Source: Actinomycetota bacterium
GTDB taxonomy: Bacteria; Actinomycetota; Rubrobacteria; Rubrobacterales; Rubrobacteraceae
DNA: 47,743 nucleotides
Direction: 5' to 3'
NCBI GenBank assembly: GCA_902812425.1
Contig: CADDZK010000001.1
Coordinates: forward strand, 1 to 47,743
In this document: positions 3,011 through 34,188 of the stretch, piece after piece
Numbering within the stretch: position 1 is the stretch's first letter
Layout of the letters: the number at the start of each line of letters is the position of its first letter
The notes under the pieces: generated by a model
What the model was told of the DNA's origin: nothing
The model's input: only the letters and a program-made list of their open reading frames with translations
Database searches by the model: none
Program-made: the position numbers and the translations under genes

Positions 3011-3433
3011 CAAGAGAAGTACGCTTTCTCTCGAATCTCGATCCTCCGATGGCGTGCTCGGGATTGCCTTCTTGGGGCGAAATGTGCCGTCTGGCCGATG
3101 TGAGCTGGCATCTCGGGGCGCATCATAGACATCCAGGGATGGTGGTATACGAACCACTCGGACGACAAAAATTGCTTACGAGCCCATGCGTCCGAAGCTA
3201 TGCGTACCTTGAGGAGCACCACATTGATACCACTCAACCCACAACGTGCCGGATAGTTCGTTCTCAGAACCACCGTAGGGTAGTCTTCAAAAGTTATCAA
3301 TGCTTGGGGCGAAGAACCCGCTGTCCTCTATGGGGATGATAGGTGGGGGAAAAGGATGCAGCCATCCGTCTGGGAAGCGGATGACCTGGCTATTGCGGTG
3401 CTCTATGTACCTCTGAGGAACCCTGCCACGGTT
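3011..3433. other. Gene-free stretch after the response regulator
   Basis: About 420 bp with no convincing gene. Short frames here lack a ribosome-binding site and have unnatural composition. It holds one copy of the 21-bp palindrome (3080-3100), with no gene start within 100 bp on the same strand, and ends at the hairpin terminator of the next gene. Confidence 0.6.
3080..3100 (+). promoter_or_regulatory. EPS-box palindrome, copy 1
   Basis: Reads AATGTGCCGTCTGGCCGATG from 3081. It matches the window-wide consensus AATGTGCCANNTGGCAGATG at nearly all conserved positions. No gene starts shortly downstream on the plus strand, so it may be a relic or may serve an unannotated transcript. Confidence 0.6.
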
Positions 3434-3465
3434 AAGGGTGGAGCCACACAAGTGGCTCCACCCTT
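3434..3465. terminator. Perfect 14-bp hairpin terminator
   Basis: Arms 3434-3447 (AAGGGTGGAGCCAC) and 3452-3465 are perfectly complementary around a 4-nt loop ACAA. It lies 35 bp past the stop codon of the minus-strand surface protein gene and probably ends that transcript. It could also stop readthrough from the plus-strand two-component genes. Confidence 0.8.
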
Positions 3466-3499
3466 CGTCAGACTGATTTCGTGGCTGTTGGTTAGCGTC

Positions 3500-5656
3500 C
3501 TATTTCTTCGTATTCACCGTCCAGGTATTGGAGGCAGGTGTGGGATCCACGTTGCCCGCTGCGTCGATGGCCCTTACCCGGAACGTGTGCTGACCGTCCT
3601 TCAAACCGTTGTACTTCGCTGGTGAGGTGCAGGAGCTGAAGGCCGCTCCATCCAGGCTGCACTCGAACTTGGAGTTCGCCTCCGTAGAGGAGAACGAGAA
3701 GCTGGCCGATTTATCCTTGACGGTGCCGGAAAGACCAGAAGTGATCGTCGTATCCGGCGCAATGGTGTCCACCGTCCAAGTCACGCTTGCGGGCGTGGGA
3801 TCTACGTTACCCGCTGCGCCGCCTATGGCCCTTACCTTGAAGGTATGCTGACCCTCTGAGAGATTGGTGTAGCTCTGCGGCGAAGTGCAGGAAGTGAAGG
3901 AGGCTCCATCCAGACTGCACTCAAACGTGGAGTTCGCTTGCGTAGAGGAGAACGAGAAGCTCGCGGAGTTGCTCTTTACCGTGCCAGAGGGACCAGAAGT
4001 GATGCTCGTGTCTGGCGTGGTGTCCACAGTCCACGTTGCGCTGGCAGGCGTGGCATCCAGATTACCTGCCGCGTCTACCGCAGCTACCTTGAAGGTATGC
4101 TGACCCTCTGAGAGGTTGGTGTAGCTCTGCGGCGAAGTGCAGGAAGTGAAGGGGGCTCCATCCAGGCTGCACTGGAAGGTGGAGTTCGCCTCTGTGGAGG
4201 AGAAGGAGAAGCTCGCTGAGGTGTTGGCCACCGTGCCAGTCGGGCCGGAGTCTATCGTCGTCTCCGGCGGCGTGGTGTCAGCATTGCCAAGCTCCATGTA
4301 ATTGTGGAGGTAGTTGCGGGTTCCGGTTGCAGGATCATCCGATGAAGCCAGAACCAAGAGTCCGCTTGTGCTGGTTACGTTCTGGTCCGTGGAGGTAGGG
4401 TTATCCGTGAAGGAATTAGCCGCGTTCCTGATAAACGGCGTTCCCTGGCCTGCCGAGAACGAGATGTTGTCCAGGGAGGTTTTCTTGTAGAAGATCGCCC
4501 TGGGTTCCACGACAGAGACGGTGCCGTCTGGATTGGTTACGGTGTTCTTCAACGGCGCAGCAGTGAACACATAGACCTGGCGGTTTGAGGTGTCGATAGT
4601 CAGGATCGGGCGGGTAACGTCATCCTGTACCGTATTAACGACGTACTTGGTGAAGGTCCCATCCTGCCCCAGCACCGACATGTAAATCAAGGGTGCGTTT
4701 GGGTCCTTGTTGACCGTATCACCGAAGGAGGTCTTGGTTACCGCAAACACCCTGCCACTCGGGTCGGCCTCAAGCGACCTGATGCTAATGTGGTCATCGG
4801 CGGCCTTGGTACCTTGCACCGGAGCGGGGTATGGCTGCCAGTTGTCGTCGGAAGTACCGTCAGGATGCGCAGCAAAGTAGATAGTGCCGTCATTCTGATT
4901 GGACCACATGATCCCGACCTTCGGTGCCTCGGTCTTCAGGTCGAAGGAGACTATCGCCGAGATATCGTCCAGGGTGGCGCTGAGGCTGTTGGCACCTGAG
5001 ACAGGGAGCACGTAAGGTTGTCCCCAGCTGGAGTCGCTCCCTTGGGTATGGTTGACGTAGACTTGGCGGAACTGCCCAGTAGAGTCAGGCTGGGTGAAGG
5101 TCGCCCACAGCTCACCTGTGGAGTCCTTGGTAATTGTGATCGCCTCCATAGGACCAGTTCCAATCAATGCTGGAAAACCGCTATCGAGGGTCCACCTTTG
5201 GGTCGCCGGATCGTAGCTGTAACGTCTGAGGTAGGCACTTTGATCTGTACCGGCGGTGCTAACCGTCGAGGTTGCCACATAGAGGTGGTTGCCGTCCCAT
5301 AGAGTATCGGACTTTGTGTTGTTGCGCTTGTCTATGAGAATTCCGGTATCCGACCAACTTTGGGTAGTCTTGTTGAAACGGTAGATATCGTAATCGGTTG
5401 CCGAGTTGAAGAGGATCCCCCACCAGGTGCCATCAGATGTGTACCAGAGCTTGTCCTGGGGCTTGTTGCCGGTGGGAGAGGCGGTGCCAGTGTAAGAGAA
5501 ATCCCTGTAACCCACGTCGGCAGCATCTGCATGTGCCTTGGGAATACTGTTCTGCAAACCAAAACCAACAAGCATCGCAAGCAATACAGCGGCGAGCACC
5601 GCTAACCGGAGACGGGTGGTGCGCCCACTGCCCAATTTTGGGACCCAGCTATTCAA
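3500..5656 (-). CDS. Secreted surface protein with three Ig-like C-terminal repeats
   Basis: 718 aa. It starts at TTG 5656 behind a strong GAGGAG site 8 nt away. A signal peptide covers about residues 12-44 (hydrophobic core 18-34, AHA-like cleavage site). Residues about 46-455 form a domain rich in W, D and G with strand-like repeats that resemble BNR/beta-propeller blades. The same domain makes up the protein at 27398-28678. Residues about 460-718 are three tandem 85-aa modules, each with SASFSFSST, FxCSLDGA, a two-Cys SCTSP segment, GQHTF and a closing TWTV; they look like bacterial Ig-like repeats. There is no LPxTG or C-terminal membrane segment. I know no function for the N-terminal domain; an extracellular matrix or adhesin role is inferred from export, repeats and the EPS setting. 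An EPS-box lies 91 bp upstream. Confidence 0.88.
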   Translation of the reverse strand: MNSWVPKLGSGRTTRLRLAVLAAVLLAMLVGFGLQNSIPKAHADAADVGYRDFSYTGTASPTGNKPQDKLWYTSDGTWWGILFNSATDYDIYRFNKTTQSWSDTGILIDKRNNTKSDTLWDGNHLYVATSTVSTAGTDQSAYLRRYSYDPATQRWTLDSGFPALIGTGPMEAITITKDSTGELWATFTQPDSTGQFRQVYVNHTQGSDSSWGQPYVLPVSGANSLSATLDDISAIVSFDLKTEAPKVGIMWSNQNDGTIYFAAHPDGTSDDNWQPYPAPVQGTKAADDHISIRSLEADPSGRVFAVTKTSFGDTVNKDPNAPLIYMSVLGQDGTFTKYVVNTVQDDVTRPILTIDTSNRQVYVFTAAPLKNTVTNPDGTVSVVEPRAIFYKKTSLDNISFSAGQGTPFIRNAANSFTDNPTSTDQNVTSTSGLLVLASSDDPATGTRNYLHNYMELGNADTTPPETTIDSGPTGTVANTSASFSFSSTEANSTFQCSLDGAPFTSCTSPQSYTNLSEGQHTFKVAAVDAAGNLDATPASATWTVDTTPDTSITSGPSGTVKSNSASFSFSSTQANSTFECSLDGASFTSCTSPQSYTNLSEGQHTFKVRAIGGAAGNVDPTPASVTWTVDTIAPDTTITSGLSGTVKDKSASFSFSSTEANSKFECSLDGAAFSSCTSPAKYNGLKDGQHTFRVRAIDAAGNVDPTPASNTWTVNTKK
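3508..4272 (-). repeat. Three tandem 255-bp coding repeats
   Basis: Units lie near 3508-3764, 3765-4019 and 4020-4272, with a period of about 255 bp. They encode the three Ig-like modules of the surface protein. Identity at DNA level is high enough (for example the SFSFSST and CSLDGA segments) that unit number could change by recombination. Confidence 0.85.
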
Positions 5657-5746
5657 TGTAAAGCTCCTCTGTTCACAGGTGGGAGATCATGCCCAACTGG
5701 TTCTCATTTCAGCATTTTCGATGCTAGAGGAGCCGATGCTTGGACA

Positions 5747-5767
5747 CATCCCCCACATGGCACATTT
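5747..5767 (-). promoter_or_regulatory. EPS-box palindrome, copy 2
   Basis: On the minus strand it reads AATGTGCCATGTGGGGGATG. The left half-site is perfect and the right half-site has two changes. It lies 91 bp upstream of the TTG start of the Ig-repeat surface protein, in that gene's orientation. Confidence 0.65.
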
Positions 5768-5922
5768 ATTAGAGTGCTTATGGGTCAGGCAAACGACTTA
5801 TCTCTTGTGAATGACGCGAACCTCCCGCGTGATCCGGCGGGTACACCGAGGCGATCCTCAGCATACAACGAGGGTATGCCAAAGGACTAGTCGGAATACG
5901 TGTGCTTCGAGGGCGAAGACAT

Positions 5923-7290
5923 CTAATCTCCCCGCGAGTACATGTGCGAATGGTTCAGCGGGCCGTGTTGGCGCCTTATCAGGAGTCCCAGAGAAAACGC
6001 GGCGATCGCGAGTCCTTCAGGCTTGACGAACCTCGCCTGTATCGGAGAGCCCAGCATGATCGCCAGGCTGATTATGAACAGCGCCCACAAGAAAGCCCGC
6101 TCCGCGGCGTGCGCCTCTCCGCCGTAGCTCCAGAGTGCACGGAGCAGATTCACGAACAACCATCCGCAATAGAACAGGTACAGTAGAAGCCCAGTTGCGC
6201 CGAACTGAAAAGCGATGCCCAGAAGCCCGACGTCTGAGGGGAAGAACGTCTCACCAAACAACTCCTGGAACGTAATCGACCCCGCGCTATCCTGGCCCAT
6301 ACCGAACAAAGGGTGCTTGGAGACTACGTCCCAGGCGATCTGGGAGCTGCCAACCCTGACGGTATAGGACAATTCCTCGCTGAACATCCCGGAGAAGGCT
6401 GCGCCGATCTGCGGTAGCGACAGGAGTATGATCATGGCGAGCAGTGGCACCAGCACGACGAACATCCTCGCCCGCCATGGCTGTGCCAAGAATAGGCCAT
6501 ACAGGACCACTGCAATCACGGCCGATGCCCACAACACGCGTGGTACGTCTACGAGCAGCATCAGAGCGGCCAGCGCCGTTATCGCCAGGTATGCACCCTT
6601 CACCACATACACACTCCGAACCTGCAGCGCTCTCCTGCCGAAGTAGAGGGCCGAGAACAGGACGCTGAGGTCTAGACGCCGGAGGAGATACGCTTGCTGG
6701 CTGTAGGTCGCATTCAGTCCGTAGGAGAACAAGTCTCCCGAGAGTAGCAAGGATCTGGGCGAGAGTGTGAAATCGGCGACGACGCGGCTAGCCATCGACA
6801 TCAACATCGCCAGGACGAAGACCTGTCTGAAGTCGGCCAGCTTCCAACCGTGAATGCGTAGAGCGAAGGTCGCTGGCGCGATCAGGAAGTACACGTAGTA
6901 CCTCTGAGCGGCGATGCTAGGGAACAGTGGAGTATCTGTTCTGATGGTAAAGACATACGCGTAAAACACTATGAAAACCGCAAGCCCGAACGCCGGGAGA
7001 CATAAGTACAGAAACCACCTCGAGTCAATGGGTATCGAGAGCGCGAGCCACAGATATAGAAGTATGGTGCAAGCTTCCGCGATCAACTCTATATGAAAGG
7101 CGGGATAGAAACCCAGGAAGCCGAAGCCACCCATAAGGCTCACCAGCAATAAGACTTGAGCGAGCAGCGGCCTTCTCAGGAGCAAATCTTGCCCCGATTC
7201 CCGCCCCGGCAAGTCACCGGGCCAGAGGAAGAAGCCTGGGTACCGACCGCCGCCGGTGAGCTTATTACGGTGAGGAAGCACTCCCAGCAT
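5923..7290 (-). CDS. O-antigen ligase / Wzy-type polymerase-like membrane protein
   Basis: 455 aa, very hydrophobic, with about 11 predicted membrane segments between residues 40 and 435. The segment WDVVSKHPLFGMGQDSAG is the family signature (HPLxGxG) of the periplasmic loop of the Wzy_C/WaaL group, which joins glycan repeat units or transfers them to an acceptor outside the membrane. It is transcribed away from the adjacent beta-propeller/sulfotransferase operon, with the EPS-box at 7397-7417 in the shared promoter. A second member of the family is at 19533, so one may polymerise and the other ligate. The start at ATG 7290 lacks a clear ribosome-binding site, so a later start is possible. 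The 30-residue Gly/Pro-rich N-terminus is atypical. Confidence 0.85.
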   Translation of the reverse strand: MLGVLPHRNKLTGGGRYPGFFLWPGDLPGRESGQDLLLRRPLLAQVLLLVSLMGGFGFLGFYPAFHIELIAEACTILLYLWLALSIPIDSRWFLYLCLPAFGLAVFIVFYAYVFTIRTDTPLFPSIAAQRYYVYFLIAPATFALRIHGWKLADFRQVFVLAMLMSMASRVVADFTLSPRSLLLSGDLFSYGLNATYSQQAYLLRRLDLSVLFSALYFGRRALQVRSVYVVKGAYLAITALAALMLLVDVPRVLWASAVIAVVLYGLFLAQPWRARMFVVLVPLLAMIILLSLPQIGAAFSGMFSEELSYTVRVGSSQIAWDVVSKHPLFGMGQDSAGSITFQELFGETFFPSDVGLLGIAFQFGATGLLLYLFYCGWLFVNLLRALWSYGGEAHAAERAFLWALFIISLAIMLGSPIQARFVKPEGLAIAAFSLGLLIRRQHGPLNHSHMYSRGD

Positions 7291-7396
7291 GGCGCGATGG
7301 GCCCGAGGTTTGATGCGATCACCCTAACGACCATGACAGCCGCAGTCTACAATGTTTGGGGCGCCGCGAACCTCCCAGAGAGCCGCTCCGCACCTA

Positions 7397-7417
7397 AAAT
7401 GTGCCACCTGGCAGACG
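7397..7417 (+). promoter_or_regulatory. EPS-box palindrome, copy 3
   Basis: Reads AATGTGCCACCTGGCAGACG from 7398. The core TGCCACCTGGCA is a perfect inverted repeat of TGCCA/TGGCA. It lies between two divergent genes, 88 bp before ATG 7505 and 107 bp before the polymerase-like gene start, so it could serve both. Confidence 0.75.
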
Positions 7418-7504
7418 CGTCCCGCTGCGTCACCACCTAGCATCTTCCTTGCAGAGACTCGTAAGACTCAGGATCAGGCAAGGAGACTGGAGGCAGGATC
7501 AGGC

Positions 7505-11601: not shown

Positions 11602-11602
11602 G

Positions 11603-16747: not shown

Positions 16748-16760
16748 TTCCCCCCCTGTT

Positions 16761-16827
16761 CGGCAGCCCGGCCGCCTCAAAGAGACCCGTTGGCTTTGCG
16801 TACCCATCTCACGATGGGGCTGCCTTT
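16761..16827 (-). promoter_or_regulatory. Cyclic di-GMP-I (GEMM-I) riboswitch
   Basis: Read on the minus strand: AAAGGCAGCCC opens P1, CCCATC-GTGA-GATGGG is a hairpin with a GNRA tetraloop, ACGCAAAGCC is the invariant joining segment, CGGGTCTC...GAGGCGGCC forms the second hairpin, and GGGCTGCCG closes P1 as the exact complement of GGCAGCCC. These are the hallmarks of the c-di-GMP-I aptamer. The aptamer ends about 7 nt before the AGGGGGG ribosome-binding site of the GH5 gene, so control of translation initiation is most likely. It ties the glycosidase to c-di-GMP level. Confidence 0.93.
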
Positions 16828-16829
16828 GT

Positions 16830-17197
16830 CGCTGCGAGGGCCGTGCCAGCGGCCGCATCGCCTATTCGATAAAATTCTACCATATTCGTCGCTGCCTAAA
16901 CTAATCCAAAATAAGAGCTTGCGGCTGCGAGCAAGACTCCTCAGCGATCCCGTGGTAGGCGCAGCCGAACACTAAAACCTGGACGGGCTACTTGAAGACC
17001 ACTCGGTCGGGTGCGCGCTGGCAGTGGCACCCTGGCGAATGATCCACCTCCCTTGCGCGCAAGCCGGGCTGCAAACTGCTGCCAGATAGGCTTGACGATG
17101 TATGGTGGGACCGCGGGCACCGGCAGACCCCTTCTTGGGAAGCGTCCAGATCTCCCCGAATGATCCAGCAGCCTGTACACTATCCAGTATCAGGACA
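16830..17197. other. Intergenic stretch with possible transposase remnant
   Basis: No intact gene. On the minus strand around 17060-17110 a short frame reads VPPYIVKPIWQQFAARL, which resembles the N-terminus of IS5-like transposases. It breaks down within about 30 codons, with the next recognisable words in other frames. I treat it as a decayed insertion-sequence fragment, with low certainty. The AT-rich run 16860-16920 probably holds the riboswitch promoter. Confidence 0.4.
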
Positions 17198-17218
17198 AAA
17201 TATGCCACATGGCAGACG
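17198..17218 (+). promoter_or_regulatory. EPS-box palindrome, copy 4
   Basis: Reads AATATGCCACATGGCAGACG from 17199, with a perfect TGCCA-CA-TGGCA core. It lies 64 bp before the small reading frame at 17282 and upstream of the Wzz-like / kinase pair. Confidence 0.72.
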
Positions 17219-17281
17219 TAGCTATCCTACCCGCCCGATAACATCTTTTTGTTGAGTGCTAAGCGAAAGGAGCTCTTACGT

Positions 17282-17419
17282 ATGCGCGGAGCTCGGCCGG
17301 ACGATCACAAGGTGACGAATGTGAACCTCTATTCCTCCAACGGACATCTGCGCGATGAGGTTCCCGCCAGAGTCGGGCTCGGTTGCACAATCACTCACAC
17401 GTCATGGTTCGGGCGTTGA
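17282..17419 (+). CDS. Small ORF (45 aa) ahead of the Wzz-like gene
   Basis: It encodes 45 residues beginning MRGARPDDHKVTNVNLYSSN. AGGAG at 17268-17272 is 9 nt before ATG 17282, a good ribosome-binding site. The EPS-box lies 64 bp upstream, at the same spacing as for other genes, so this is likely the first coding frame of the transcript. There is no membrane segment and no known family. It could be a small protein or a leader peptide for the wzz-like gene 83 bp downstream. Coding status is unproven. Confidence 0.45.
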   Translation: MRGARPDDHKVTNVNLYSSNGHLRDEVPARVGLGCTITHTSWFGR

Positions 17420-19107: not shown

Positions 19108-19128
19108 GAATGTGCCATCTGGCAGATG
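19108..19128 (+). promoter_or_regulatory. EPS-box palindrome, copy 5
   Basis: Reads AATGTGCCATCTGGCAGATG from 19109, the best overall match to the consensus: ATGTGCCA and TGGCAGAT on either side of TC. It lies 66 bp before ATG 19194. Confidence 0.78.
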
Positions 19129-19193
19129 TAGAAGACCGCCAAGGTCATCATACTGTACTTAGTAACCAAATTTGTTTGATGGAGGCGAGAAGA

Positions 19194-19490
19194 ATGAACA
19201 AGAGCATCGTTACGCCCGTGGCTACACGTCTAGTCCTGCTGCCTTTGTCGATGCTCGTCCTAGTTCTGGGTCGGGCCGCGGCCGCATTCGCCGATACTCC
19301 CTTCGGCTCGCAGTATGGGAACCCCGCAGACCCCGCAAAGGACGCGGGCGTCGGACATCTGCTGGGAGGTATTGAGGGCGTGCTGCCCTCTACCGGCGGA
19401 CCGCTACTCTACCTGGCGCTACTGGGTGTTGTGTTGCTCTGCTGTGGTTCTGCTCTGCTTGTGCGGCGGGCAATGACTAGCCGCCGATAG
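19194..19490 (+). CDS. Tiny LPSTG sortase-anchored surface protein
   Basis: 98 aa. ATG 19194 has GGAGG 8 nt upstream; longer frames run into the EPS-box. The N-terminal signal peptide is residues 1-33 (AFA-like cleavage). A mature segment of about 30 residues follows, then LPSTG (64-68), a hydrophobic helix (71-90) and the tail RRAMTSRR: a complete sortase sorting signal. The exposed part is so short that it may act as a pilin-like subunit, spacer or glycan acceptor on the wall; that role is inference. No sortase gene is in the window. It is followed 42 bp later by the ligase-TPR gene and probably co-transcribed from the EPS-box promoter. Confidence 0.82.
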   Translation: MNKSIVTPVATRLVLLPLSMLVLVLGRAAAAFADTPFGSQYGNPADPAKDAGVGHLLGGIEGVLPSTGGPLLYLALLGVVLLCCGSALLVRRAMTSRR

Positions 19491-23447: not shown

Positions 23448-24938
23448 TCAATAGGCGTCCTTCCTGCTCATAAGGCACCGAACGGTGCGGAAGAGGAGCA
23501 CGAGGTCCAGCCATACTGACCAGTCGCGCACGTAGCGGGCGTCCATATCCACCCTATAGGCGAAGGAGGTCCCGTTGCGTCCGGATACCTGCCACGGACC
23601 CGTGATCCCCGGGAGGACCCGCAGGATCTCGCCCTGAGTAGCCCCTATGTCATCGGACTCGCGAGGCAGGTATGGTCGGGGACCGACCAAGCTCATCTCT
23701 CCGCGCAGGACGTTCCATAACTGCGGCAACTCGTCCAGGCTCGTCTTCCGCAACAGCCTCCCCACCCGCGTGACGCGCGGATCGTCGCGCAGCTTGTGGT
23801 ACTTCATATACTCTTCTCTCGCCGCTGCGTCTTCCCTGAGCAACCGCCGCAAGGCGTCCTCGGCGTCAGGCACCATAGTCCTGAACTTGATGCAAGGGAA
23901 CAGCTTGCCGTCGCGTCCCAACCGCTGGTCCGCATAGAAGATAGAACCACCGGATTCCGCCCACACGAGCAACGAGAGCACCGCGATGAGAGGGAGTGCG
24001 AAGATCCCCCCCGCCAGCGTCGCCGCCAGGTCGAGCGTACGCTTGAGACGCTGCGCCCAGGGGTTCAGCAGGTTGTGCTCTACTTCGACCCCGAAGGTAC
24101 CTGCGAAGTCCCTGGCCACTACTGCAGAGTTGGTGATGCCTTCCAGGTTGGGGATCACCACGATATGCCGGAATGTGTCGCCGAAAAGGCTCACGAGCCT
24201 CGCCAGGCGCTCGCGTCGCACGTAGGGCATGGCGAAGATGGCCGTCTCTATACCGCGTTGCTTGGCCGCGCTAATGGCGTCAGCCAGGGTACCGCCGTAA
24301 GGGACGCCCTCGACCTCGCCCTCCGCCGGGGTCAGATGGTTATCGAAGACGCCAATCGGTCTGAGCCCGAGCTGCCACTCCCTGCGCAAGGCCCTCAACA
24401 CGCGGGCTCCCGCTTCATGGGCGCCGAGCACGACGACCGGCTTCCCCCACACGCCCATCCGCATCAGCATGTACTTGACCCCGTAACGCGCCACGGGCGC
24501 CGCTAGCAACAGGCCGAAGGAACTTCCGAAAAGCATCAGCCGGGAGAGCGTGTCGTCCGCGTGGAAGGCGAGCGCGAAAACCGCGGTGATGGCCAACGTG
24601 GTGAGCAAGGCAAGTGTCTGCCGCCGCAGCTCATCTATTTGTCCCATCCCATAGCCGGGGTAAAGACCCGATAATCCACGCAGGCCAACCCATGCGACGA
24701 CGTATGGGAAGAAGCCCACGACAGAGACGATCGACAGCTGGCCATGGCCGAGAACCTGCTGTACGGCGAAGAATATCTCCCAGACGACAGTCGCAAGCAA
24801 AACGTCGGCGAGCACAAGAGTGGGGATCACTATCGCCTGACCCACTAGCCCTTTGACCTGGCGCCTCGCCGCGCCCGCGTGCATTGTTCCTGGTGTTGGG
24901 GCCGGCTGTGCGACCTTGGCCTCCATAGTGCTAGACAC
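23448..24938 (-). CDS. Polyprenyl-phosphate sugar-1-phosphate transferase (WbaP/WcaJ type)
   Basis: 496 aa from GTG 24938 (AGGAGG 11 nt upstream; ATG 24926 is an alternative). Four or five N-terminal membrane helices (about 30-165) are followed by a CoA-binding-like domain (VVVLGAHEAGARVLRAL, about 165-290). The catalytic bacterial-sugar-transferase domain (about 300-496) has KRTLDLAATLAGG, FPCIKFRTMVPDAED, LRKTSLDELPQLWNVL and GEMSLVGPRP. It loads the first sugar phosphate on undecaprenyl phosphate and so commits the pathway. The EPS-box lies 71 bp upstream, placing the committing step under the shared operator. Confidence 0.93.
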   Translation of the reverse strand: MSSTMEAKVAQPAPTPGTMHAGAARRQVKGLVGQAIVIPTLVLADVLLATVVWEIFFAVQQVLGHGQLSIVSVVGFFPYVVAWVGLRGLSGLYPGYGMGQIDELRRQTLALLTTLAITAVFALAFHADDTLSRLMLFGSSFGLLLAAPVARYGVKYMLMRMGVWGKPVVVLGAHEAGARVLRALRREWQLGLRPIGVFDNHLTPAEGEVEGVPYGGTLADAISAAKQRGIETAIFAMPYVRRERLARLVSLFGDTFRHIVVIPNLEGITNSAVVARDFAGTFGVEVEHNLLNPWAQRLKRTLDLAATLAGGIFALPLIAVLSLLVWAESGGSIFYADQRLGRDGKLFPCIKFRTMVPDAEDALRRLLREDAAAREEYMKYHKLRDDPRVTRVGRLLRKTSLDELPQLWNVLRGEMSLVGPRPYLPRESDDIGATQGEILRVLPGITGPWQVSGRNGTSFAYRVDMDARYVRDWSVWLDLVLLFRTVRCLMSRKDAY

Positions 24939-25008
24939 GATTGCGACGACCTCCTGCCAGGAGTCAATAGTTCGTTAATGTGATGTTAAATAGGTCGCCT
25001 CTTGGCAG

Positions 25009-25029
25009 CATCGGCCAGGTGGCACATTT
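25009..25029 (-). promoter_or_regulatory. EPS-box palindrome, copy 6
   Basis: On the minus strand reads AATGTGCCACCTGGCCGATG. The core is TGCCACCTGGC, with A to C after it. It lies 71 bp upstream of the priming sugar transferase start. Confidence 0.75.
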
Positions 25030-25176: not shown

Positions 25177-25429
25177 CCCGCGTCCTCCAACCCATGAAGG
25201 AGGTCATCGCTTCATGAGCTTAAACCATCTTCGGGGGTGCGCGCATCGGTAGAATGGCACATCTTCTGCACGAAAGAGGACGCCAACGCGAGGTGAACAG
25301 TAGGGGACTATTCAATATAGGCTGCCTGGCCCATGTAGTGCTAGGGGCTTAGAGCCCATACTTAGGATAACGCTGCAGCGCAAGGGGCGAGGGTCTTAGA
25401 CCGACGGGTCAGTGGGTCCCGGACTCCTC

Positions 25430-26721: not shown

Positions 26722-26900
26722 GTTCCCCCCTCCCCAGGTCGCGCGGTTAATTCCGGCCAGCTCGATAGAGACGTACTATTCGAACCTTGCTAGAAGCCTG
26801 TTATCGGCCCCGTCTACCCTGAGGTGTCGAACCTACGTTGCTTCTGGAGCGCCCTAGTGGCGCTGGGATGTTTAACTCTGTGTGTATAGTCCCCTCCTTT

Positions 26901-26974
26901 CGGCAGCCCGGCCGTCTCCTATTCAGGAGACCCGTAGGCTTTGCGCGCCTGCCTCGCAGCAGGGTTGCCTTTTC
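26901..26974 (-). promoter_or_regulatory. Cyclic di-GMP-I (GEMM-I) riboswitch
   Basis: Read on the minus strand: AAAAGGCAACCC, a hairpin CTGC-TGCGAG-GCAGG, the invariant CGCAAAGCC, a second hairpin GGGTCTCCT-GAAT-AGGAGACGGCC, and GGGCTGCCG closing P1, followed by AAAGGAGGGG. This is the same architecture as the aptamer at 16761-16827. The start codon of the beta-helix gene is about 180 nt downstream with its own ribosome-binding site. A small hairpin AGCGCC-ACTAG-GGCGCT (about 26850-26866) in between may be part of the expression platform. Confidence 0.92.
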
Positions 26975-27174
26975 GCGACGCCATTGTACATACAAACACA
27001 AGCAGCAGATGTTCTTGAAGCACTGTGGCTGACCTTTTCTGAAATCCACAATTGCTGGTGGTTGGCAGCTGGAGGAGATACTAGTTGGTGCATCGAGCAT
27101 TCCACAAATGAACTATCTTTGCCGTTGCTTGCGATTGCGAAATTCGAAGAGCTCTCCGTACAGGCGAAGTTCCG

Positions 27175-27320: not shown

Positions 27321-27321
27321 A

Positions 27322-27336
27322 CGCACTCGGGTGAAT
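27322..27336 (+). repeat. CACTCGGGTGAAT repeat, copy 1
   Basis: CGCACTCGGGTGAAT lies immediately after the right end of the 146-bp inverted-repeat element. One of four same-strand copies within 3.3 kb. Confidence 0.55.
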
Positions 27337-27397
27337 CAGGGCATGAAGGTAAGGGTCGATGCCTTGTTGTGTGCCTCGTCCAGTAAGGAGCGTCTCG

Positions 27398-28678
27398 TCA
27401 GTAGTTAAGGTCCAAGAAGTTGTGCAGGTAATAGTGGGTGGCGCTGTTCTGGGCCTCGACCAGGAGCCCGCTGCTCGCGTTGACGTTCTGCTTGGTGGAG
27501 GTGGGGTTGTCTATAGCAGTGTCAAGCGAACTCTTTATGAACGGCGTGCCCTCCCCGTCTGGGAAGGAGATGTTGTCCAGGGATGTCTGCTTGTAGTAGA
27601 TGGCCTTGGGCTCGTTGAGGAACTTGGTCGTGTTGGGCCCAGCAGCGAACACGTAGAGCTGGCGGTGCGTGGTGTCGATGAGCACGATGGGACGGGTCTG
27701 ATCGTCCTGGACCCGGCTAACCGTGTACCTGGAGAAGGCGCCGTTCTGTCCCAACACCGCCAGGTAGATCTGGGTAGCGTCAGGGGAGGCATTCGACAGG
27801 TCGCCGAAGGAGGTCTTGGCGGCGACGAAGATCCTGCCCGAAGGGTCGGTCTGGAGCGATTTGAGGTTAATGTGATCGTCGGCGCTCTTCTTGCCCTGGA
27901 TCACCGGTATGCTGGGCGACCACGATGTGTCAGGGGCTCCGTCGGTGTGGGAGGAGAAGTACATGACGCTGGCGGGCTGGTTGGACCACACGAGCCCGAT
28001 CTTCGGGGCCTCCGTGTTAAGGTCGAAGGCGACGACGGCCGAGATGTCGTCCGCCTTTACGGTCGGTCCCGTGACCGGCGGAACGAACGGTGTAGCCCAG
28101 CTGGCGTCGTTGCCAGCCTGTGAGTGGGTAACGTAAAGCTGGGTGACCCCCTGAGCATTCGGCTGGGTGTAGGTCGCCCACAGCAGACCCGTAGAGTCCT
28201 GGTCGAAGTTCAGCGCCTCCATCGGTCCATTGCCGATGACCGCAGGGAAGCCTGTGTCCATCGTGTAGGTATTCGTGGCGGGGTCGTAGCTATATCGCCT
28301 CAGGTAAGCGTTCTGGTCTGTGGTCGTGGTGTCGATGGCGGAGGTGGCCACGTAAAGGTTGGTGCCGTTCCACAAGGTGTCGGACCTGGTACGGCCCCGT
28401 GCGTCCACTACGGTGCCGGTGTCAGACCAGCTCTGAGTCGCCTTGTCGAAGCGGTAGATGTCGTAGCGGTTGGTGCTCTTGTTGAACAGCACGCCCCACC
28501 AGGTACCGTCTGCGGTGTACCACAGCTTGCTCTGGGGCTTGGTACTCGTGGGGGTAGGGGCATTCTTGTTGTACTGGAAGTCCCTGTAGCCCATCTCTAC
28601 CTGAGCGGCGAGGGCCACCCCGCATGCGAGCAGCAAAGCTAAGGTCATAGAAGCCAATAGCAGCTTTGTCTTTCTCAT
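27398..28678 (-). CDS. Secreted protein, single-domain paralogue of the Ig-repeat surface protein
   Basis: 426 aa from ATG 28678, chosen because AAGGG is 8 nt upstream (GTG 28687 and ATG 28684 also possible). Signal peptide about 1-24 (LALLLACGVALAA; cleavage after ALA, or a weak lipobox at LLAC). The rest aligns throughout with residues about 46-455 of the 718-aa protein at 3500-5656: MGYRDFQY, KLWYTADGTWWGVLFN, YDIYRFDKATQSWSDTG, AYLRRYSYDPAT, GPMEAL, DDISAVVAFDL, TEAPKIGLVWSNQ, DDHINLKSLQTDPSGR, TSFGDL, TSLDNISF. It lacks the Ig-like tail. The conserved Asp and Trp positions suggest a metal- or sugar-binding propeller; function is unknown. The EPS-box lies 99 bp upstream. Confidence 0.87.
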   Translation of the reverse strand: MRKTKLLLASMTLALLLACGVALAAQVEMGYRDFQYNKNAPTPTSTKPQSKLWYTADGTWWGVLFNKSTNRYDIYRFDKATQSWSDTGTVVDARGRTRSDTLWNGTNLYVATSAIDTTTTDQNAYLRRYSYDPATNTYTMDTGFPAVIGNGPMEALNFDQDSTGLLWATYTQPNAQGVTQLYVTHSQAGNDASWATPFVPPVTGPTVKADDISAVVAFDLNTEAPKIGLVWSNQPASVMYFSSHTDGAPDTSWSPSIPVIQGKKSADDHINLKSLQTDPSGRIFVAAKTSFGDLSNASPDATQIYLAVLGQNGAFSRYTVSRVQDDQTRPIVLIDTTHRQLYVFAAGPNTTKFLNEPKAIYYKQTSLDNISFPDGEGTPFIKSSLDTAIDNPTSTKQNVNASSGLLVEAQNSATHYYLHNFLDLNY

Positions 28679-28776
28679 CCCCATCACCCTTCTTTCGTGA
28701 GACGGAGGAAAGAAGGGTGTCAGACCCCCGCTCCGTTACGAAGTGAAGAAAGCGTAATCTGCGGTGTGGAGAAGCA

Positions 28777-28797
28777 CATCAGCCAGGTGGCCCATTT
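28777..28797 (-). promoter_or_regulatory. EPS-box palindrome, copy 7
   Basis: On the minus strand reads AATGGGCCACCTGGCTGATG. Core GCCACCTGGC is intact. It lies 99 bp upstream of ATG 28678 of the secreted paralogue gene, so both paralogues carry the box at a similar distance. Confidence 0.72.
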
Positions 28798-29158: not shown

Positions 29159-29578
29159 GTGGTCCTCTTGGACAGAAGGTTCGCAATGATGGGCTCCGGG
29201 CTCCGCGGGCTGGCGCCCAGGTCGGTCAGGATGTGGTTGGTTGGTCTGCTGGTGGCTTTGGCAATGGCGGCGGTGATGGCCGATAGGGCCTCCGCTTCCT
29301 CCGGGGAGGTCATGGCAGACACCGACGGATACGTGCCCGTCTACAGCGTCTGCTACTCGGGGACAGGCTACTTGGCCTATTACAGCTGGTATTACGACGG
29401 CTACGATACGGTCTACGGCGCCGTCTACGTCGACGACTGCCTCTTGGCGGACTACGGAGCGGGGCCCCACGACCGCCAGATGGTCATAGCCCACGAGATG
29501 GGGCATGCTAGGGGACTACCGCACAGCTCCGATCCTGACAGCTATATGTACCCGTACTACACCATTACAGGCACGTAG
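29159..29578 (+). CDS. Small secreted metzincin-like zinc protease
   Basis: 139 aa from GTG 29159 (GAGGAAGGGG just upstream; ATG 29186 is an alternative). A signal peptide spans about 20-47 (MWLVGLLVALAMAAVMA). The mature part is about 92 residues with the zinc motif HEMGHARGLPH (112-122), the full HExxHxxGxxH form, followed by SYMYPYY as the Met-turn. That pattern is diagnostic for metzincins of the matrixin group, but their catalytic domains are usually about 160 residues, so this is a minimal version. The mature part is very rich in Tyr (over ten) and has two Cys (in SVCYSG and DDCLLA). It probably trims surface or matrix proteins. No EPS-box directly upstream. Confidence 0.85.
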   Translation: MVLLDRRFAMMGSGLRGLAPRSVRMWLVGLLVALAMAAVMADRASASSGEVMADTDGYVPVYSVCYSGTGYLAYYSWYYDGYDTVYGAVYVDDCLLADYGAGPHDRQMVIAHEMGHARGLPHSSDPDSYMYPYYTITGT

Positions 29579-29654
29579 GCGGCTACGGGGAGCCCCCGAC
29601 TAGCGACCGTCACCGGAGCCCGCTTAACGCGAAGTTCGCGGAATGAAACTTCCA

Positions 29655-29669
29655 CGCACTCGGGTGAAT
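29655..29669 (+). repeat. CACTCGGGTGAAT repeat, copy 3
   Basis: CGCACTCGGGTGAAT, identical over 15 bases to copy 1. It lies 77 bp past the protease stop codon. Confidence 0.55.
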
Positions 29670-29771
29670 TGGTATGTGTCGAAGTATGATGCTTTTGTCG
29701 TCTGCTAGGTAGCGAGCGAGGTTCCTTGTGCCACTGCGCAATACCGCTAGGTCTATCTGTCTTTCCCAGCC

Positions 29772-30590
29772 GTGAGAGACCGGATAAAGGGGCTTCCGGC
29801 TCCGTCAAGGTACTTGATCTACTTTGCGGCTATGCTCCTGGTGTTCTTTGTGGCGGTCGGTGTAGGCGCGGTGGCGGCGCTCATGCTCGGCCGGGAGCCT
29901 CAGCGAGATGTGTCTACCTCTACTAGCTCCGCGGAATCCAGAACATTCGAAGACACTGTATTGGAGACGACCAGCATTACCAAGAAGACCTTAGAAGATA
30001 CCGGGATCGAGGCGACCAACCATACCAAGACAGCCAACCCTCGAAAGCCCGCCCAGGAGGCTTCCTTCGTTCACAAGGCTACGGACGAGAACAGCCGCGG
30101 CGACTACACTTATCTCAGCAACCCGAGCATTAACCGTGACCCGAACGCTATCGTCCTCGTCAGACCGATCTCGGATCGGGGGAGTACCAGCGGTACCACC
30201 TACAAACACAACATTGGTGTCTGGTACGAGACTGTGGCCAAGAAGTGGGCAATCTTCAACCAGGATCGAGCTGCTGTACCCCGCGGGGCTACCTTCAAGG
30301 TGATCGTGCCGCCAGCTTCGGAGAGTTTCGTTCACCATGCCGAGCTCATCAACACCGTGGGCAACACGACCTACCTAGATGACCCTCTGACCAACGGCAA
30401 CCCGGACGCTGTACTCTCGGTCACCCAGAACTGGAATCCTGGGGGCAAGAGGGGAATCTACAACAACCACCCGATAGGCGTCCTGTACGACAAAGATCTA
30501 AAGAAGTGGGCGATCTACAACCGAGACGATGGGCCGATGCCCGACGGAGCCGCCTTCAACGTCGCAATCTCTGAGAAGACCCAGCTCTAG
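29772..30590 (+). CDS. Membrane-anchored protein with two DUF7452-like repeats
   Basis: 272 aa from GTG 29772; no convincing ribosome-binding site. One membrane helix (about 14-38, LIYFAAMLLVFFVAVGVGAVAALM) is followed by a Ser/Thr/Lys-rich linker (40-95). Two homologous modules (about 98-182 and 185-268) share FVHxA, TYLxxPxxNxxPxAxxxV, a YxxxIGVxY strand, KKWAIxNxD and a closing PxGAxFxV. They resemble modules I recall as DUF7452. Topology: cytosolic N-tail, ectodomain outside. The anchor resembles that of the protein at 31745. Ligand unknown; sugar or matrix binding is a guess. Confidence 0.8.
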   Translation: MRDRIKGLPAPSRYLIYFAAMLLVFFVAVGVGAVAALMLGREPQRDVSTSTSSAESRTFEDTVLETTSITKKTLEDTGIEATNHTKTANPRKPAQEASFVHKATDENSRGDYTYLSNPSINRDPNAIVLVRPISDRGSTSGTTYKHNIGVWYETVAKKWAIFNQDRAAVPRGATFKVIVPPASESFVHHAELINTVGNTTYLDDPLTNGNPDAVLSVTQNWNPGGKRGIYNNHPIGVLYDKDLKKWAIYNRDDGPMPDGAAFNVAISEKTQL

Positions 30591-30604
30591 GCACTTGGGT
30601 GAAT
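30590..30604 (+). repeat. CACTCGGGTGAAT repeat, copy 4
   Basis: Reads GGCACTTGGGTGAAT and begins at the stop codon of the DUF7452-like gene. It lies 9 bp before an EPS-box copy. Confidence 0.5.
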
Positions 30605-30612
30605 AACCTTCA

Positions 30613-30633
30613 ATATGTGCCACATGGTAGATG
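30613..30633 (+). promoter_or_regulatory. EPS-box palindrome, copy 8
   Basis: Reads TATGTGCCACATGGTAGATG from 30614. Left half-site perfect, one change in the right. No convincing gene starts within 100 bp; it may drive a non-coding or unrecognised transcript in 30.7-31.6 kb. Confidence 0.62.
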
Positions 30634-30676
30634 CGTCCTTCCTCGCCACAGGTTACGCTTGGATCGTTACATCTCT

Positions 30677-30706
30677 GGTGCTGGGTAATGTGTGCTACCC
30701 AGCACC
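30677..30706. terminator. 11-bp perfect inverted repeat
   Basis: Arms GGTGCTGGGTA (30677-30687) and TACCCAGCACC (30696-30706) pair perfectly over an 8-nt loop. It lies 87 bp after the DUF7452-like gene. No U-tract follows, so it is a candidate terminator or RNA-stabilising hairpin. Confidence 0.55.
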
Positions 30707-31399
30707 ACTGAACATAGGGGAAACGCCCATCACATCAGGTCGCTCACAACCCGCGGAGGTTCACCACATAGAGCGCAGGCTAGACCTCGACGCCTTTGCT
30801 GATGACTCTCCCCGGGGAGGGCTGCCTTCCGTTTACGTTCGAGTGAGTGGATACATCCTGCTGGTCGCGATGGCAGTAGTTGTTTGCTATTCGGCAACGC
30901 TATGACGTTGTGGGAGAGGAAGGCGGAATCAAGGCCTCCACGACGCACCTGTATTTGGTAGCACTTCCCTGTTGTCACTCACGAACGTCGGAGAACACAT
31001 CTTCTGAAGATGTCCGGAAGCTAGCGTGGATTTGGCCTCTATAAGGAGGGCGGAGAGGACCGCAAAGAGTTTTCTCGTTGGTCTCTAGGGCTACGACGCT
31101 GTAGTCGCCTCCGAGGCTTTTCACACAGTTTCTCCACACCATTACCAGAGAGATCTCCAGCAGATACCCTGCTCCCGGATGGTTACGTATACCGAAAAGT
31201 ACGAATCATGCCGGACCTGCCGGAGGGGTTTCCGGGCTGGAGTCGGCTCTAGGCTAGTTTGTAGGCGCTCAGAGCGTGCTCTCCAGCTTGCCTTGATGTT
31301 GGATTCTCTGGACTTTGTCTGAATGAGGCTTCCTCTGAAGTCCTTGGCCAAATTCCTCAAGCGTTCTTGCATGGAGAAAAGTAGTCACCTGGCCTCTTA
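30707..31399. other. Gene-free accessory stretch
   Basis: Nearly 700 bp with no gene I can defend. A 17-nt palindrome ACATCTTC-T-GAAGATGT lies at 30997-31013. Short frames on both strands lack ribosome-binding sites and recognisable domains. Composition suggests decayed DNA. Confidence 0.5.
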
Positions 31400-31420
31400 C
31401 AATGAGCTATCTGGCAGACG
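31400..31420 (+). promoter_or_regulatory. EPS-box palindrome, copy 9
   Basis: Reads AATGAGCTATCTGGCAGACG from 31401. Right half-site perfect, two changes in the left. It is 325 bp before ATG 31745, with a structured leader in between. Confidence 0.58.
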
Positions 31421-31592
31421 TACTCTGTCACTCCGCAGGTTATACTCCGTGCGTTACGTAACCGGGCGGTGGACTCGAGCACCCTCATGTACTTCGATCC
31501 ACGGCAGTCCGAGGCGAATTCCGACTTGCACGAAATGCTGTATGTGTCTATCCTGTCACCGCTACAGGATGTAGATGGGTAGAGGCTAAGAT

Positions 31593-31624
31593 TTCCGCTC
31601 CAAGCTTGGGCACCCGGGGCGGAG
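31593..31624 (+). ncRNA. Leader hairpin 1 of the 31745 operon
   Basis: TTCCGCTCC (31593-31601) can pair with GGGGCGGA (31616-31623) around an inner AAGCTTGGGCACCC. Together with the adjacent terminator hairpin it looks like a structured mRNA leader. It matches no riboswitch class that I can recall with confidence. Confidence 0.4.
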
Positions 31625-31638
31625 GGAGTTAGTGGTGC

Positions 31639-31678
31639 AACCGGCTACCGTAGGTCATTATGACCCCGGTGGCCGGTT
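31639..31678 (+). terminator. Strong intrinsic terminator / possible attenuator
   Basis: AACCGGCTACCG (31639-31650) pairs with CGGTGGCCGGTT (31667-31678) with one G-U. Inside it GGTCA-TTA-TGACC extends the stem, and the run TTTTGCGTTTT follows. This is a near-ideal Rho-independent terminator only 67 bp before the start codon of the next gene, which suggests attenuation or the end of an upstream non-coding transcript. Confidence 0.8.
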
Positions 31679-31744
31679 TTGCGTTTTAAGGAGAATCTAG
31701 GGCCGCACGATGACTACGAAGCGATACCAGAGATCCCACCGATC

Positions 31745-32407
31745 ATGATCAAGTGGTGGCAGCAGCGCTCGTTCCTCCAGAGGTTACTAGTGTACGCAGT
31801 GACAGCAACCTTGGCGTTCCTTCTGGCTGCAGGCGTAGGCGCCATGACGGCCCTCCTCATGCAAGGCGATCTAAGCTCGCTCACAAAGGAAGAGCCTGGA
31901 CACAAAGAACTCAGCCCGTCTGGTCAGCAAGGCAATGCCCCGCATCGTCAACAAGCGGATGTTGAGCAAGCAAAAGCTGCTCCTCAGCAAGCGCAAACCA
32001 CATATGTTAATAGGGTTGGCGACATACAAAGCGATTCCGTAAAGACGTTCTTGGACAGCCACGACAAACTTCTGCATTACGACGCCCTCACCGCCGATGA
32101 TATCGGAAAGATGCAGGCTAACCAAGCCACCCTCCAAGAGTTGACCGACCATGTCGACAACCTAAATCCACCACAGAAGTATAAAGAGCAGTACAAGGTG
32201 TTCCGTCTTGCCGTTAATGAGCTACACGAAAGCGCCCAATTGGCTTACACGTTTGCTGACGATCCCACTGTTGCCACCCAGTCCGGATTTGAAGAGTATG
32301 ACCGTCATGTTAGTCAGGCCGCTGCGTACTTGAAGAAATCTAATGAGATGCTCAGCCGAGACTACAAGACGATCGAAGGGGTGAAAAGAGTTAGCCAATC
32401 GTTGTAG
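31745..32407 (+). CDS. Single-pass membrane protein with helical ectodomain
   Basis: 220 aa from ATG 31745; the frame extends to TTG 31679, but that lies in the terminator's T-run. One membrane helix (about 11-36) ends GVGAMTALLMQGD, similar to GVGAVAALMLGRE in the protein at 29772. The ectodomain has a Gln/Glu/Lys-rich linker (45-85) and then mostly helical sequence (about 90-215) with NPPQKYKEQYKVFRLAVNEL and AAAYLKKSNEMLSRDYKTI. I do not recognise the family. It is co-directional with the LPSSG protein 25 bp downstream, suggesting a two-gene operon for a surface complex. Confidence 0.75.
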   Translation: MIKWWQQRSFLQRLLVYAVTATLAFLLAAGVGAMTALLMQGDLSSLTKEEPGHKELSPSGQQGNAPHRQQADVEQAKAAPQQAQTTYVNRVGDIQSDSVKTFLDSHDKLLHYDALTADDIGKMQANQATLQELTDHVDNLNPPQKYKEQYKVFRLAVNELHESAQLAYTFADDPTVATQSGFEEYDRHVSQAAAYLKKSNEMLSRDYKTIEGVKRVSQSL

Positions 32408-32432
32408 CTCGAAGAGTCTACGGAGGCTCATA

Positions 32433-33077
32433 GTGAATATAAAGGTGAACGGGTATCGAGAGGAGAGGATCGTGTGTCAACCGATACGATTCGCCGGGGT
32501 CGTCTTGGTCACAGTGTTATTGGCATCCCTATTTCTGGGCGAAAGCGCCTTCGCCCAGGACGCAAAGAGCGTAGAGCTCCATCTCGCGCCGATACGCGAC
32601 TCCGGGGTAAGCGGCACGGCCACCCTCTCGGACGTCAAGGATGGCGTGCAGGTCAACGTGAGCGTGCAGGGCCTGCCAGAGGCGGGGGTCGAGCACATCA
32701 ACCACTTCCACGGAGGGGGCACCTGCGCAGATGTTCAAGCCGGTAAAATGCCGCCGGTTACGATACCCTTGAAAACCATCGTGGCCAAAGAGGACGGTAC
32801 GGGATCTGCTACCACGACTATCAAAGACGTTAACTTGGACGAACTCCTTGGAAAGGACCAGCATCGCTTCATTCTCGTGCACGCCAAGGTCAAAGAAGGG
32901 CAGGGCGTCCCTCCTGGCATCTCTTGCGCTGATCTCCCTCAAAGCTCCGCCAACACTACCTTTAAATCATTGCCCTCAAGCGGCGGATTGCCACCTGTGG
33001 TGTTGCTCGTTATCCCATTGACGCTGGGTCTCGTGGGAGTAAGCGCGGTGTTGGTGCTGCGACGCTGCATAGCTTGA
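32433..33077 (+). CDS. LPSSG-anchored surface protein with CHRD/SOD-like domain
   Basis: 214 aa. GTG 32433 has GGAGG 6 nt upstream. A signal peptide covers about 18-42 (AFA-QD cleavage). The mature domain (45-170) reads VELHLAPIRDSGVSGTATL, then EHINHFHGGGTC and HRFILVHAKV, reminiscent of CHRD or Cu/Zn-superoxide-dismutase-like beta-barrels. The His cluster H88, H91, H93 could bind metal, but the complete SOD ligand set is not evident. The C-terminus is a sorting signal: LPSSG (180-184), a hydrophobic helix (187-209) and the short tail RRCIA. It should be covalently wall-attached by a sortase encoded elsewhere. Confidence 0.82.
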   Translation: MNIKVNGYREERIVCQPIRFAGVVLVTVLLASLFLGESAFAQDAKSVELHLAPIRDSGVSGTATLSDVKDGVQVNVSVQGLPEAGVEHINHFHGGGTCADVQAGKMPPVTIPLKTIVAKEDGTGSATTTIKDVNLDELLGKDQHRFILVHAKVKEGQGVPPGISCADLPQSSANTTFKSLPSSGGLPPVVLLVIPLTLGLVGVSAVLVLRRCIA

Positions 33078-33079
33078 GG

Positions 33080-33193
33080 TTGGTAAGCACGTTGGCGGTC
33101 GAGGTGTCGAAGGTGTGGGTGACGGGCAGGCGCTACCTGGACATGGAGGAGCTGCGCGAGCAGCATGGGCGGATTGCGATGCTGAGGGGGTGA
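33080..33193 (+). pseudogene. Short coding-like fragment
   Basis: 37 codons beginning LVSTLAVEVSKVWVTGRRYL and ending IAMLRG. It reads like the C-terminal end of a soluble protein, but the only starts are TTG codons just past the previous stop. Its stop is followed 3 bases later by GTG 33197, opening a second 34-codon frame (ERWEKDAASWRKLQKLRDLA) to 33301. They may be remnants of one or two deleted genes. Low certainty. Confidence 0.3.
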
Positions 33194-33558
33194 TGTGTGG
33201 AGCGATGGGAGAAGGATGCGGCTTCCTGGAGGAAATTACAGAAACTTCGGGACTTGGCCCCTACTTGTTCCGTTTTTAACAAACGTTTGGCGGACCTCTA
33301 ACTCCTAGTTTTCACCCCTTTAACATACAGACAGGAGTGCGGGGCCGGGAGTTGCATTAGAGCTGGACGGCCGACTTTTTGGCCCCTGATAGCGATGGGC
33401 CGGAGTCCGGTAGGACCACGGCTCGGTCGTTCCTAGCGCATCTGACAGCCTGCACGCGGTCTCCGAAGGCTCTACTATGCCTGCATGGGAGCGAAACTAG
33501 AGAGGAGGCCAGAGACCCGGACCTCTGCGGGGACTCTGGAGAGCGTACAGGGGCCCTG

Positions 33559-33902
33559 GTGGCGAAGGGTGTTCAGGTGAGCCTCGGTGTGCTAGCCGTT
33601 CTCTTGGCGGCAGGCTCCTTAGCCGTGAGTGTGGCCATCCTTTTCATTGTCTTGCGAATTTTGCAGAGCACGCGCAGAGAGGCGCAAAGTGTGACGAGCG
33701 GCTGGAGATATTGCGTGAGCAGCGAGACCGTCTCGCGTTCATGAGTGAGGAGCGCCGCCAGCCCCTAGAGGAACTGGAGAGGCGGCGTACGGCGATCGCC
33801 GAACTGGCGTGCCAGCGCCAAGTAGAGAGTCAGCGCGAGATAGCCGCGGCCGTGCGGCGGGAGCAGTCTCTGTCCTGGGGGCGTAGGATGTTCGGTTCGT
33901 AG
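33559..33902 (+). pseudogene. Small membrane plus coiled-coil protein split by a frameshift
   Basis: The first frame from GTG 33559 encodes VSLGVLAVLLAAGSLAVSV and a following hydrophobic helix, then RILQSTRREAQ. The continuing coding character shifts to another frame near 33680-33700, which reads CDERLEILREQRDRLAF and a highly charged EERRQPLEELERRR coiled coil to the stop at 33902. A membrane helix followed by a coiled coil is a natural single protein of about 110 aa, so a one-base change probably broke it. Two overlapping genes is the alternative. Family unknown. Confidence 0.55.
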
Positions 33903-34167
33903 TGGGGCCGCAATACTCGATGGACGTTACCAGGGACATAGCACCCGACCTCTCAACGCTGGTCGGGGGGCTGGCAGCCTTGAAGCGAGACGCTAACTAC
34001 TGGCTTACCTCTCTTGAGTAGGCAGCTCGACGGCATCGTCTGGCCACAGCACACTCGGTGGTAGAGGCGGCGCTCCGGAACTGAGCGCTGCAGTGGCCAG
34101 GGTCCTCCTCATTCGTTCCCGTATCGTCTTGCTGATTTCTCTAATAATAATTGAGGGACGTGCGCAA

Positions 34168-34188
34168 AAATGGGCCACTTGGCGGATG
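34168..34188 (+). promoter_or_regulatory. EPS-box palindrome, copy 10
   Basis: Reads AATGGGCCACTTGGCGGATG from 34169. Core GCCACTTGGC is intact. It lies 61 bp before ATG 34249 of the small zinc-ribbon gene. Confidence 0.7.

Follow-up and report, generated by a model that had tools for sequence, protein, structure and literature searches.

A direction-bearing palindrome ahead of surface genes in Rubrobacteraceae and its probable NarL-type regulator

Features of the locus

The Rubrobacteraceae are dominant desiccation- and radiation-tolerant soil actinobacteria about whose gene regulation little is known. We analyzed a 47,743-nt stretch from one member of this family (assembly GCA_902812425.1, contig CADDZK010000001.1; the whole stretch is called the window here), in which an exopolysaccharide (EPS) region gives way to a GC-richer housekeeping half. 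The window begins with genes for a histidine kinase and a response regulator of the NarL/LuxR family, and ten copies of an 18-bp palindrome, hereafter the box, are distributed among the surface genes that follow (Table 1). The box and the regulator that probably binds it are the subject of this work.

Table 1. Boxes, genes and RNA elements of the window, with related features elsewhere
Feature	Position	Strand	Associated elements and remarks
Histidine kinase	32-2143	+	PAS-PAS-GAF-HisKA_3-HATPase (Pfam); reaches contig edge
Response regulator, NarL/LuxR family	2291-3010	+	receiver and GerE helix-turn-helix (Pfam); recognition helix GTAKNHVEHI
Box	3082-3099	+	72 bp past regulator stop; -10 CATCAT 3121-3126; inferred +1 3133
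Box	5748-5765	-	secreted Ig-domain protein 3500-5656; -10 TAGCAT 5721-5726
Box	7399-7416	+	DUF4915/sulfotransferase operon, from 7505; -10 TAGCAT 7438-7443
Box	17200-17217	+	Wzz/kinase group, from 17502; -10 TAACAT 17239-17244
Box	19110-19127	+	LPSTG protein 19194-19490 and Wzy-like 19533; -10 CATACT 19149-19154
Box	25010-25027	-	priming sugar transferase 23448-24938; -10 TAACAT 24983-24988
Weaker box	25243-25264	-	second box of the priming sugar transferase
Weaker box	25315	+
Box	28778-28795	-	secreted protein 27398-28678, paralogue of 3500-5656; -10 TACGCT 28751-28756
Box	30615-30632	+	no clear gene behind; -10 TACGCT 30654-30659; strong hairpin just past inferred +1
Box	31402-31419	+	-10 TATACT 31441-31446; predicted transcript: c-di-GMP-II aptamer, then gene 31679-32407
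Box	34170-34187	+	small Cys-rich protein 34249-34458; -10 TATCAT 34209-34214
c-di-GMP-I-GGC riboswitch	16758-16833	-	Rfam; ahead of GH5-like gene
c-di-GMP-I riboswitch	26899-26979	-	Rfam; ahead of secreted NosD-like gene
c-di-GMP-II aptamer	31572-31655	+	Rfam RF01786, 55.8 bits against a gathering score of 53.5; behind box 31402
Phage-type integrase gene	34969-35637	+
tRNA gene	35707-35780	-
Two-hairpin RNA	L013, L117, L134, L138, L142, L018, L021 (own genome), L203 (G003)		copies
Pseudo-receiver	L192:16825-17214, L191:2716-3192, L153:1073-1459 and others		GGDPVVGRALELLL...WPCR.EDL; also beside the C115 paralogue
Paralogous regulator, helix KVH	C115:3664-4320 (own genome)		60% identical to window regulator

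A palindrome at a fixed distance from the -10 hexamer

The box has the form ATGTGCCA-NN-TGGCAGAT. A first-pass annotation of the window had listed ten copies, and all were found again, each with zero to three mismatches from the core ATGTGCCANNTGGCAGAT; allowing up to three mismatches, 15 strand-hits to this core occur in the window where 0.36 would be expected, and no shuffle out of 100 gave more than three. All ten copies are intergenic, although curated genes fill about 80% of positions 1-35637. The housekeeping half (35.7-47.7 kb) contains none, again as first described. The inverted repeat is indeed imperfect, and its mismatch can be located at pair 3/16 (G3/G16). This broken pair, together with a GATG(T/C) that hardly varies on the promoter side, gives the box a direction.

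The flanks had been called unconserved, which holds for the upstream side only; downstream, conservation continues as far as a -10 hexamer whose spacing is fixed. In an ungapped alignment on the palindrome, numbered from the first A of ATGTGCC, positions 41 (A) and 45 (T) are invariant among the ten copies and position 40 is T in most, yielding hexamers such as TAGCAT, TAACAT and TACGCT. With position 40 taken as -12, transcription would start at position 52 and the dyad center (9.5) would fall at -42.5. The dyad overlaps the place of a -35 element, where no -35 consensus is found. Thus the features of a class II site, namely a dyad near -41.5/-42.5, fixed -10 spacing and a missing -35 consensus, are all present, with the +1 derived from the -10 hexamer. 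The fixed -10 distance, overlooked in the first-pass annotation, explains the palindrome, setting it where a class II activator would sit.

The spacing is also seen in palindromes selected without regard to it. A matrix that took in only the ten palindromes of the window, and nothing of the -10, gave 54 matches in approximately 360 kb of sequence from relatives, compared to 2 in the reversed sequence. Among 35 palindromes that had escaped selection by the -10 pattern, TANNNT lies at 21 nt in 10 and at 22 nt in 7, the background for this hexamer being 0.4% per position.

Most copies lie upstream of gene starts, as had been proposed, with the exception that the start given at 17282 opens a frame of only 45 codons; the Wzz gene itself starts some 250 nt past the inferred +1. 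Directly behind three copies (30615, 31402 and 3082) there is no gene; at the second, a riboswitch follows. The leader of the 30615 copy, on the forward strand from approximately 30666, lacks a convincing gene and has a strong hairpin, GGTGCTGGGTA...TACCCAGCACC.

Recurrence in the genome and the family

The genome was scanned with patterns combining palindrome and -10, using the reversed patterns as controls. Palindrome, N19 and TANNNT with at most three mismatches occur 25 times in the source genome, as opposed to 0 for the reversed pattern, and 10 of the 25 fall in the 48-kb window; the N20 version, whose set overlaps the former, gives 31 against 1. For the family scan we sampled 60 further genomes, 36 from the Rubrobacteraceae and 24 from elsewhere in the phylum. 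At two mismatches, the palindrome with its -10 is present in 18 of 37 Rubrobacteraceae genomes (the source genome included), compared to two weak matches in the 24 genomes outside the family, with the control at 0 everywhere.

In relatives the boxes are clustered as well, with seven in about 27 kb (G018) and eight in about 36 kb (G006). The first gene behind a box encodes, by Pfam, Wzz, a priming transferase, WecG/TagA or an Ig-like secreted protein, and by sequence a sulfotransferase, Wzx or Wzy; a secreted beta-propeller protein is also among the targets. These are the same kinds of surface gene as in the window, and together with the genome counts they support the proposal that a dimeric regulator's site defines a surface/EPS regulon. 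The label "EPS" is too narrow, since many boxes outside the window precede genes with signal peptides (judged by eye), Ig-like proteins, an RTX-repeat protein, and copies of a small RNA described below. With targets beyond the EPS locus, the regulon concerns the cell surface. At L191:423-611 (minus strand), a box drives a 63-residue peptide (MKKAYTTPSLTVHGSVEKITL...) that by eye resembles a lasso-peptide precursor.

Riboswitch leaders and a two-hairpin RNA

Rfam models place three riboswitches for cyclic di-GMP (c-di-GMP) in this single EPS locus, and the c-di-GMP-II aptamer precedes the gene of a membrane-anchored protein. Its arrangement of box, -10 and aptamer is repeated at L145 in the same genome and at L177 in another genus, and variant boxes precede several other c-di-GMP-II aptamers. 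Aptamers of the c-di-GMP-I type also occur in EPS loci of relatives (L189, L197 and L199).

Several boxes are directly followed by an RNA of about 115 nt with two hairpins and a C/U-rich, anti-Shine-Dalgarno-like linker. It has no match in Rfam. A model built from eight copies recovered 11 from the source genome and 5 from one congener, with a single marginal hit elsewhere, making this RNA a candidate small-RNA family. In six of nine copies outside the model, a box lies at the identical distance and the RNA begins at the predicted +1; the conserved 5' end of the RNA therefore agrees with the start derived from the -10, and supports the promoter reading independently.

The candidate regulator and its paralogues

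The product of 2291-3010 combines a receiver (PF00072, 2.8e-32) with a GerE-type helix-turn-helix (PF00196, 5.7e-16), as is characteristic of the NarL/FixJ type, and its best matches in the PDB include VraR, DevR and NarL. By sequence, the residues for receiver phosphorylation are in place (IVDDHE, LMDVRMPEM, LTMHE and LKDA), and a HisKA_3 kinase is encoded next to it, its probable partner. The closest named relative, 73% identical, comes from a metagenome-assembled genome of the Rubrobacteraceae.

In many relatives, as in the window, a box immediately follows the regulator gene. Among homologues at least 55% identical, 16 of 38 have a box within 10 kb, compared to 1 of 64 less similar regulators and about 1.4% expected by area, with near-identical genomes counted separately and the 55% cut chosen once the list had been seen. 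The box also appears to vary with the recognition helix, at the residue X of KXH: KNH is accompanied by the half-site ATRTGCC (at least eight loci), KVH by ATACGCC or ATATGCC (three loci), KTH by GTACGCC (one locus) and K[KR]H by GGGTC (two loci), and in a tree the helix variants sit on long separate branches. Because the numbers are small, this covariation is only suggestive. Co-localization and covariation nevertheless favor the regulator that had been guessed as the protein likely to bind the boxes.

The source genome encodes at least one paralogue, at C115, directly behind which are the palindromes AAATATGCCA-AG-TGGCATATGC and AAATACGCCA-CC-CGGCGTACGC. Sites outside the window are mostly of the AGATATGCC form (AGATATGCC..GGCAGATG) with 22-nt spacing. 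As the C115 boxes resemble this prevailing form, the sites outside the window are probably shared between the window regulator and the C115 paralogue. Variant boxes, ATAGTTCA-TT-TGAGGGATGT, occur in L290, L298, L299, L300, L311 and at L138:2019, often about 70 nt before c-di-GMP-II aptamers, and suggest yet another paralogue of the regulator.

In at least 12 loci of relatives, the regulator gene is adjoined by a gene for a small protein, mostly located behind a box. This protein has no Pfam match. AlphaFold2 models it (predicted local distance difference test score 72) as a receiver fold, with PDB receivers as structural matches at E of about 2e-5; the alignment contains no phosphoacceptor aspartate, and we refer to it as a pseudo-receiver. 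Profile comparison between the pseudo-receivers and the receiver of the regulator gave no significant match, and tblastn found no such gene in the window.

These observations could fit a broader picture, which we hold tentatively and at somewhat less than even odds. The Rubrobacteraceae would have an expanded two-component subfamily with a separate box for each paralogue, often planted behind the paralogue's gene and before a pseudo-receiver, and with single helix residues setting the half-site (KNH for ATGTGCC, KVH or KTH for ATACGCC, K[KR]H for GGGTC), the boxes driving surface-coat genes, c-di-GMP-II leaders and a multicopy small RNA. If so, this would be a layered network for surface remodeling with a readable protein-DNA code.

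A proposed class II operator and its alternatives

We propose, with a probability of about 0.78, that the palindrome functions as operator for a Rubrobacteraceae response regulator of the NarL/LuxR family, in the window most probably that encoded at 2291-3010, and that it serves class II activation of surface genes. The PAS-PAS-GAF kinase would phosphorylate the adjacent regulator, whose dimer would occupy the 18-bp dyad centered at -42.5, over the -35 place, and bring RNA polymerase to promoters equipped with a -10 and lacking a good -35. Genes for surface polysaccharide, secreted proteins and the LPSTG protein would then be switched on together, and the c-di-GMP-II riboswitch in the 31402 transcript could act as a second gate.

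Several points weigh against this proposal. Position 16 is G where perfect symmetry needs C. Within 10 kb of 22 of the 38 close regulators there is no box at the stringency used, some of these lying on short contigs and some having variant boxes, and the identity cut that defines the 38 was set post hoc. The kinase is paired with the regulator through adjacency only, and DNA binding, activation over repression and the signal are likewise steps that we infer. In addition, the similar box of the C115 paralogue makes the assignment of copies to regulators ambiguous.

This ambiguity leads to the alternative that a paralogue of the same subfamily, such as that at C115, binds the box, or that paralogues share it and the local regulator acts on a part of the copies. 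The C115 palindromes and the many AGATATGCC-like sites at 22-nt spacing are in its favor, but the window copies, including the one just behind the local regulator gene, mainly show ATGTGCC and a spacing of 21 nt, a form matching the KNH helix of that regulator; we regard this alternative as unlikely, though worth keeping in mind. Repression by steric block of RNA polymerase at -35 would also place a palindrome over the -35 region, where repressors may sit as well; invariant -10 spacing, the helical phase at -42.5 and the missing -35 consensus are, however, what an activator needs, and a mainly repressing role seems improbable.

Fixed -10 spacing and a single orientation relative to the gene would equally be expected if an alternative sigma factor, extracytoplasmic function (ECF) or other, recognized the whole unit as its promoter, with the palindrome forming part of -35 recognition. 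This is very improbable, given that an 18-bp dyad spanning about -51 to -34 exceeds a -35 element in length and extends too far upstream to be one, that the -10 is an ordinary TANNNT, that perfect palindromes lie beside some regulators, and that the box sequence tracks the helix-turn-helix of the neighboring response regulator. There is hardly any room for a dispersed repeat or mobile element end as the carrier of the palindrome: some copies outside the window do belong to the repeated RNA element of about 115 nt, but comparison of the leaders in the window revealed no longer common repeat beyond the promoter, save at paralogous gene starts, and across the family the boxes precede different genes at constant spacing with differing upstream flanks. 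The annotation's view that the box is not a transposon end agrees with this comparison. A sigma-54 promoter (TGGCAC-N5-TTGC, on the other strand) was rejected by eye, there being no -12 GC at the right spacing, and a CRP/FNR-type site was rejected because the half-site is wrong.

Relation to known regulators

The type of regulon is known, with BldM, OsdR/DevR and VpsT as cousins; the site, the regulon and the lineage are without precedent in the literature searched, which also yielded none for EPS regulation or c-di-GMP riboswitches in Rubrobacter and, as first stated, no described regulator with this palindrome. The published consensuses of the three cousins differ from ATGTGCCANNTGGCAGAT. 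BldM binds TCACcCgnncGgGTGA (PMC4125116) and OsdR/DevR binds AGGGCCGATCGGCCCT (PMC5069765). Like the window regulator, both belong to the NarL family, have two half-sites around a 2-bp center, and had their regulons found genome-wide from a motif. In contrast, the Rubrobacter half-site is ATGTGCCA, the targets are surface-polysaccharide and secreted-protein genes in a different order of Actinobacteria, and boxes lie directly behind the regulator gene, with a pseudo-receiver as neighbor in relatives. VpsT of Vibrio cholerae, a LuxR/CsgD-type regulator of exopolysaccharide genes, binds c-di-GMP itself and recognizes a degenerate box (PMC8754643). Control of exopolysaccharide is thus tied to c-di-GMP in both cases, but the box differs, and the c-di-GMP input in the present one comes by way of riboswitches in the leaders of some targets.

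The TraR tra box and LuxR lux box have the sequence ATGTGCAGATCTGCACAT. The likeness to the Rubrobacter box extends to the 18-bp dyad, a near-identical outer half-site (ATGTGC), the class II position and a GerE-type helix-turn-helix, while the center is CANNTG here and AGATCT there. Tra boxes are 18-bp inverted repeats whose class II members are centered at about -45 and overlap the -35 (PMC3907764). A quorum-sensing regulon of the LuxR/TraR kind was rejected, since by Pfam the window regulator has a receiver and no autoinducer-binding (acyl-homoserine-lactone) domain; no quorum-sensing synthase was seen. VraR/LiaR, the closest solved structures (5hev, 4gvp), are the best sequence match to the full-length regulator and share an envelope-related role; they serve a Firmicute stress response, and the likeness is at the protein level.

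For the control of surface polysaccharide in the Rubrobacteraceae, no earlier site, probable regulator or target list was found, and these results supply all three. Fixed geometry combined with natural variants over about 40 genomes provides a clean set for studying DNA choice by NarL-type helices; through the c-di-GMP-II leaders, the regulon is linked to control of surface life by a second messenger.

The phage-type integrase gene adjoins the tRNA gene exactly at the transition from the EPS region to the housekeeping half, and this junction is possibly the border of an integrated island.

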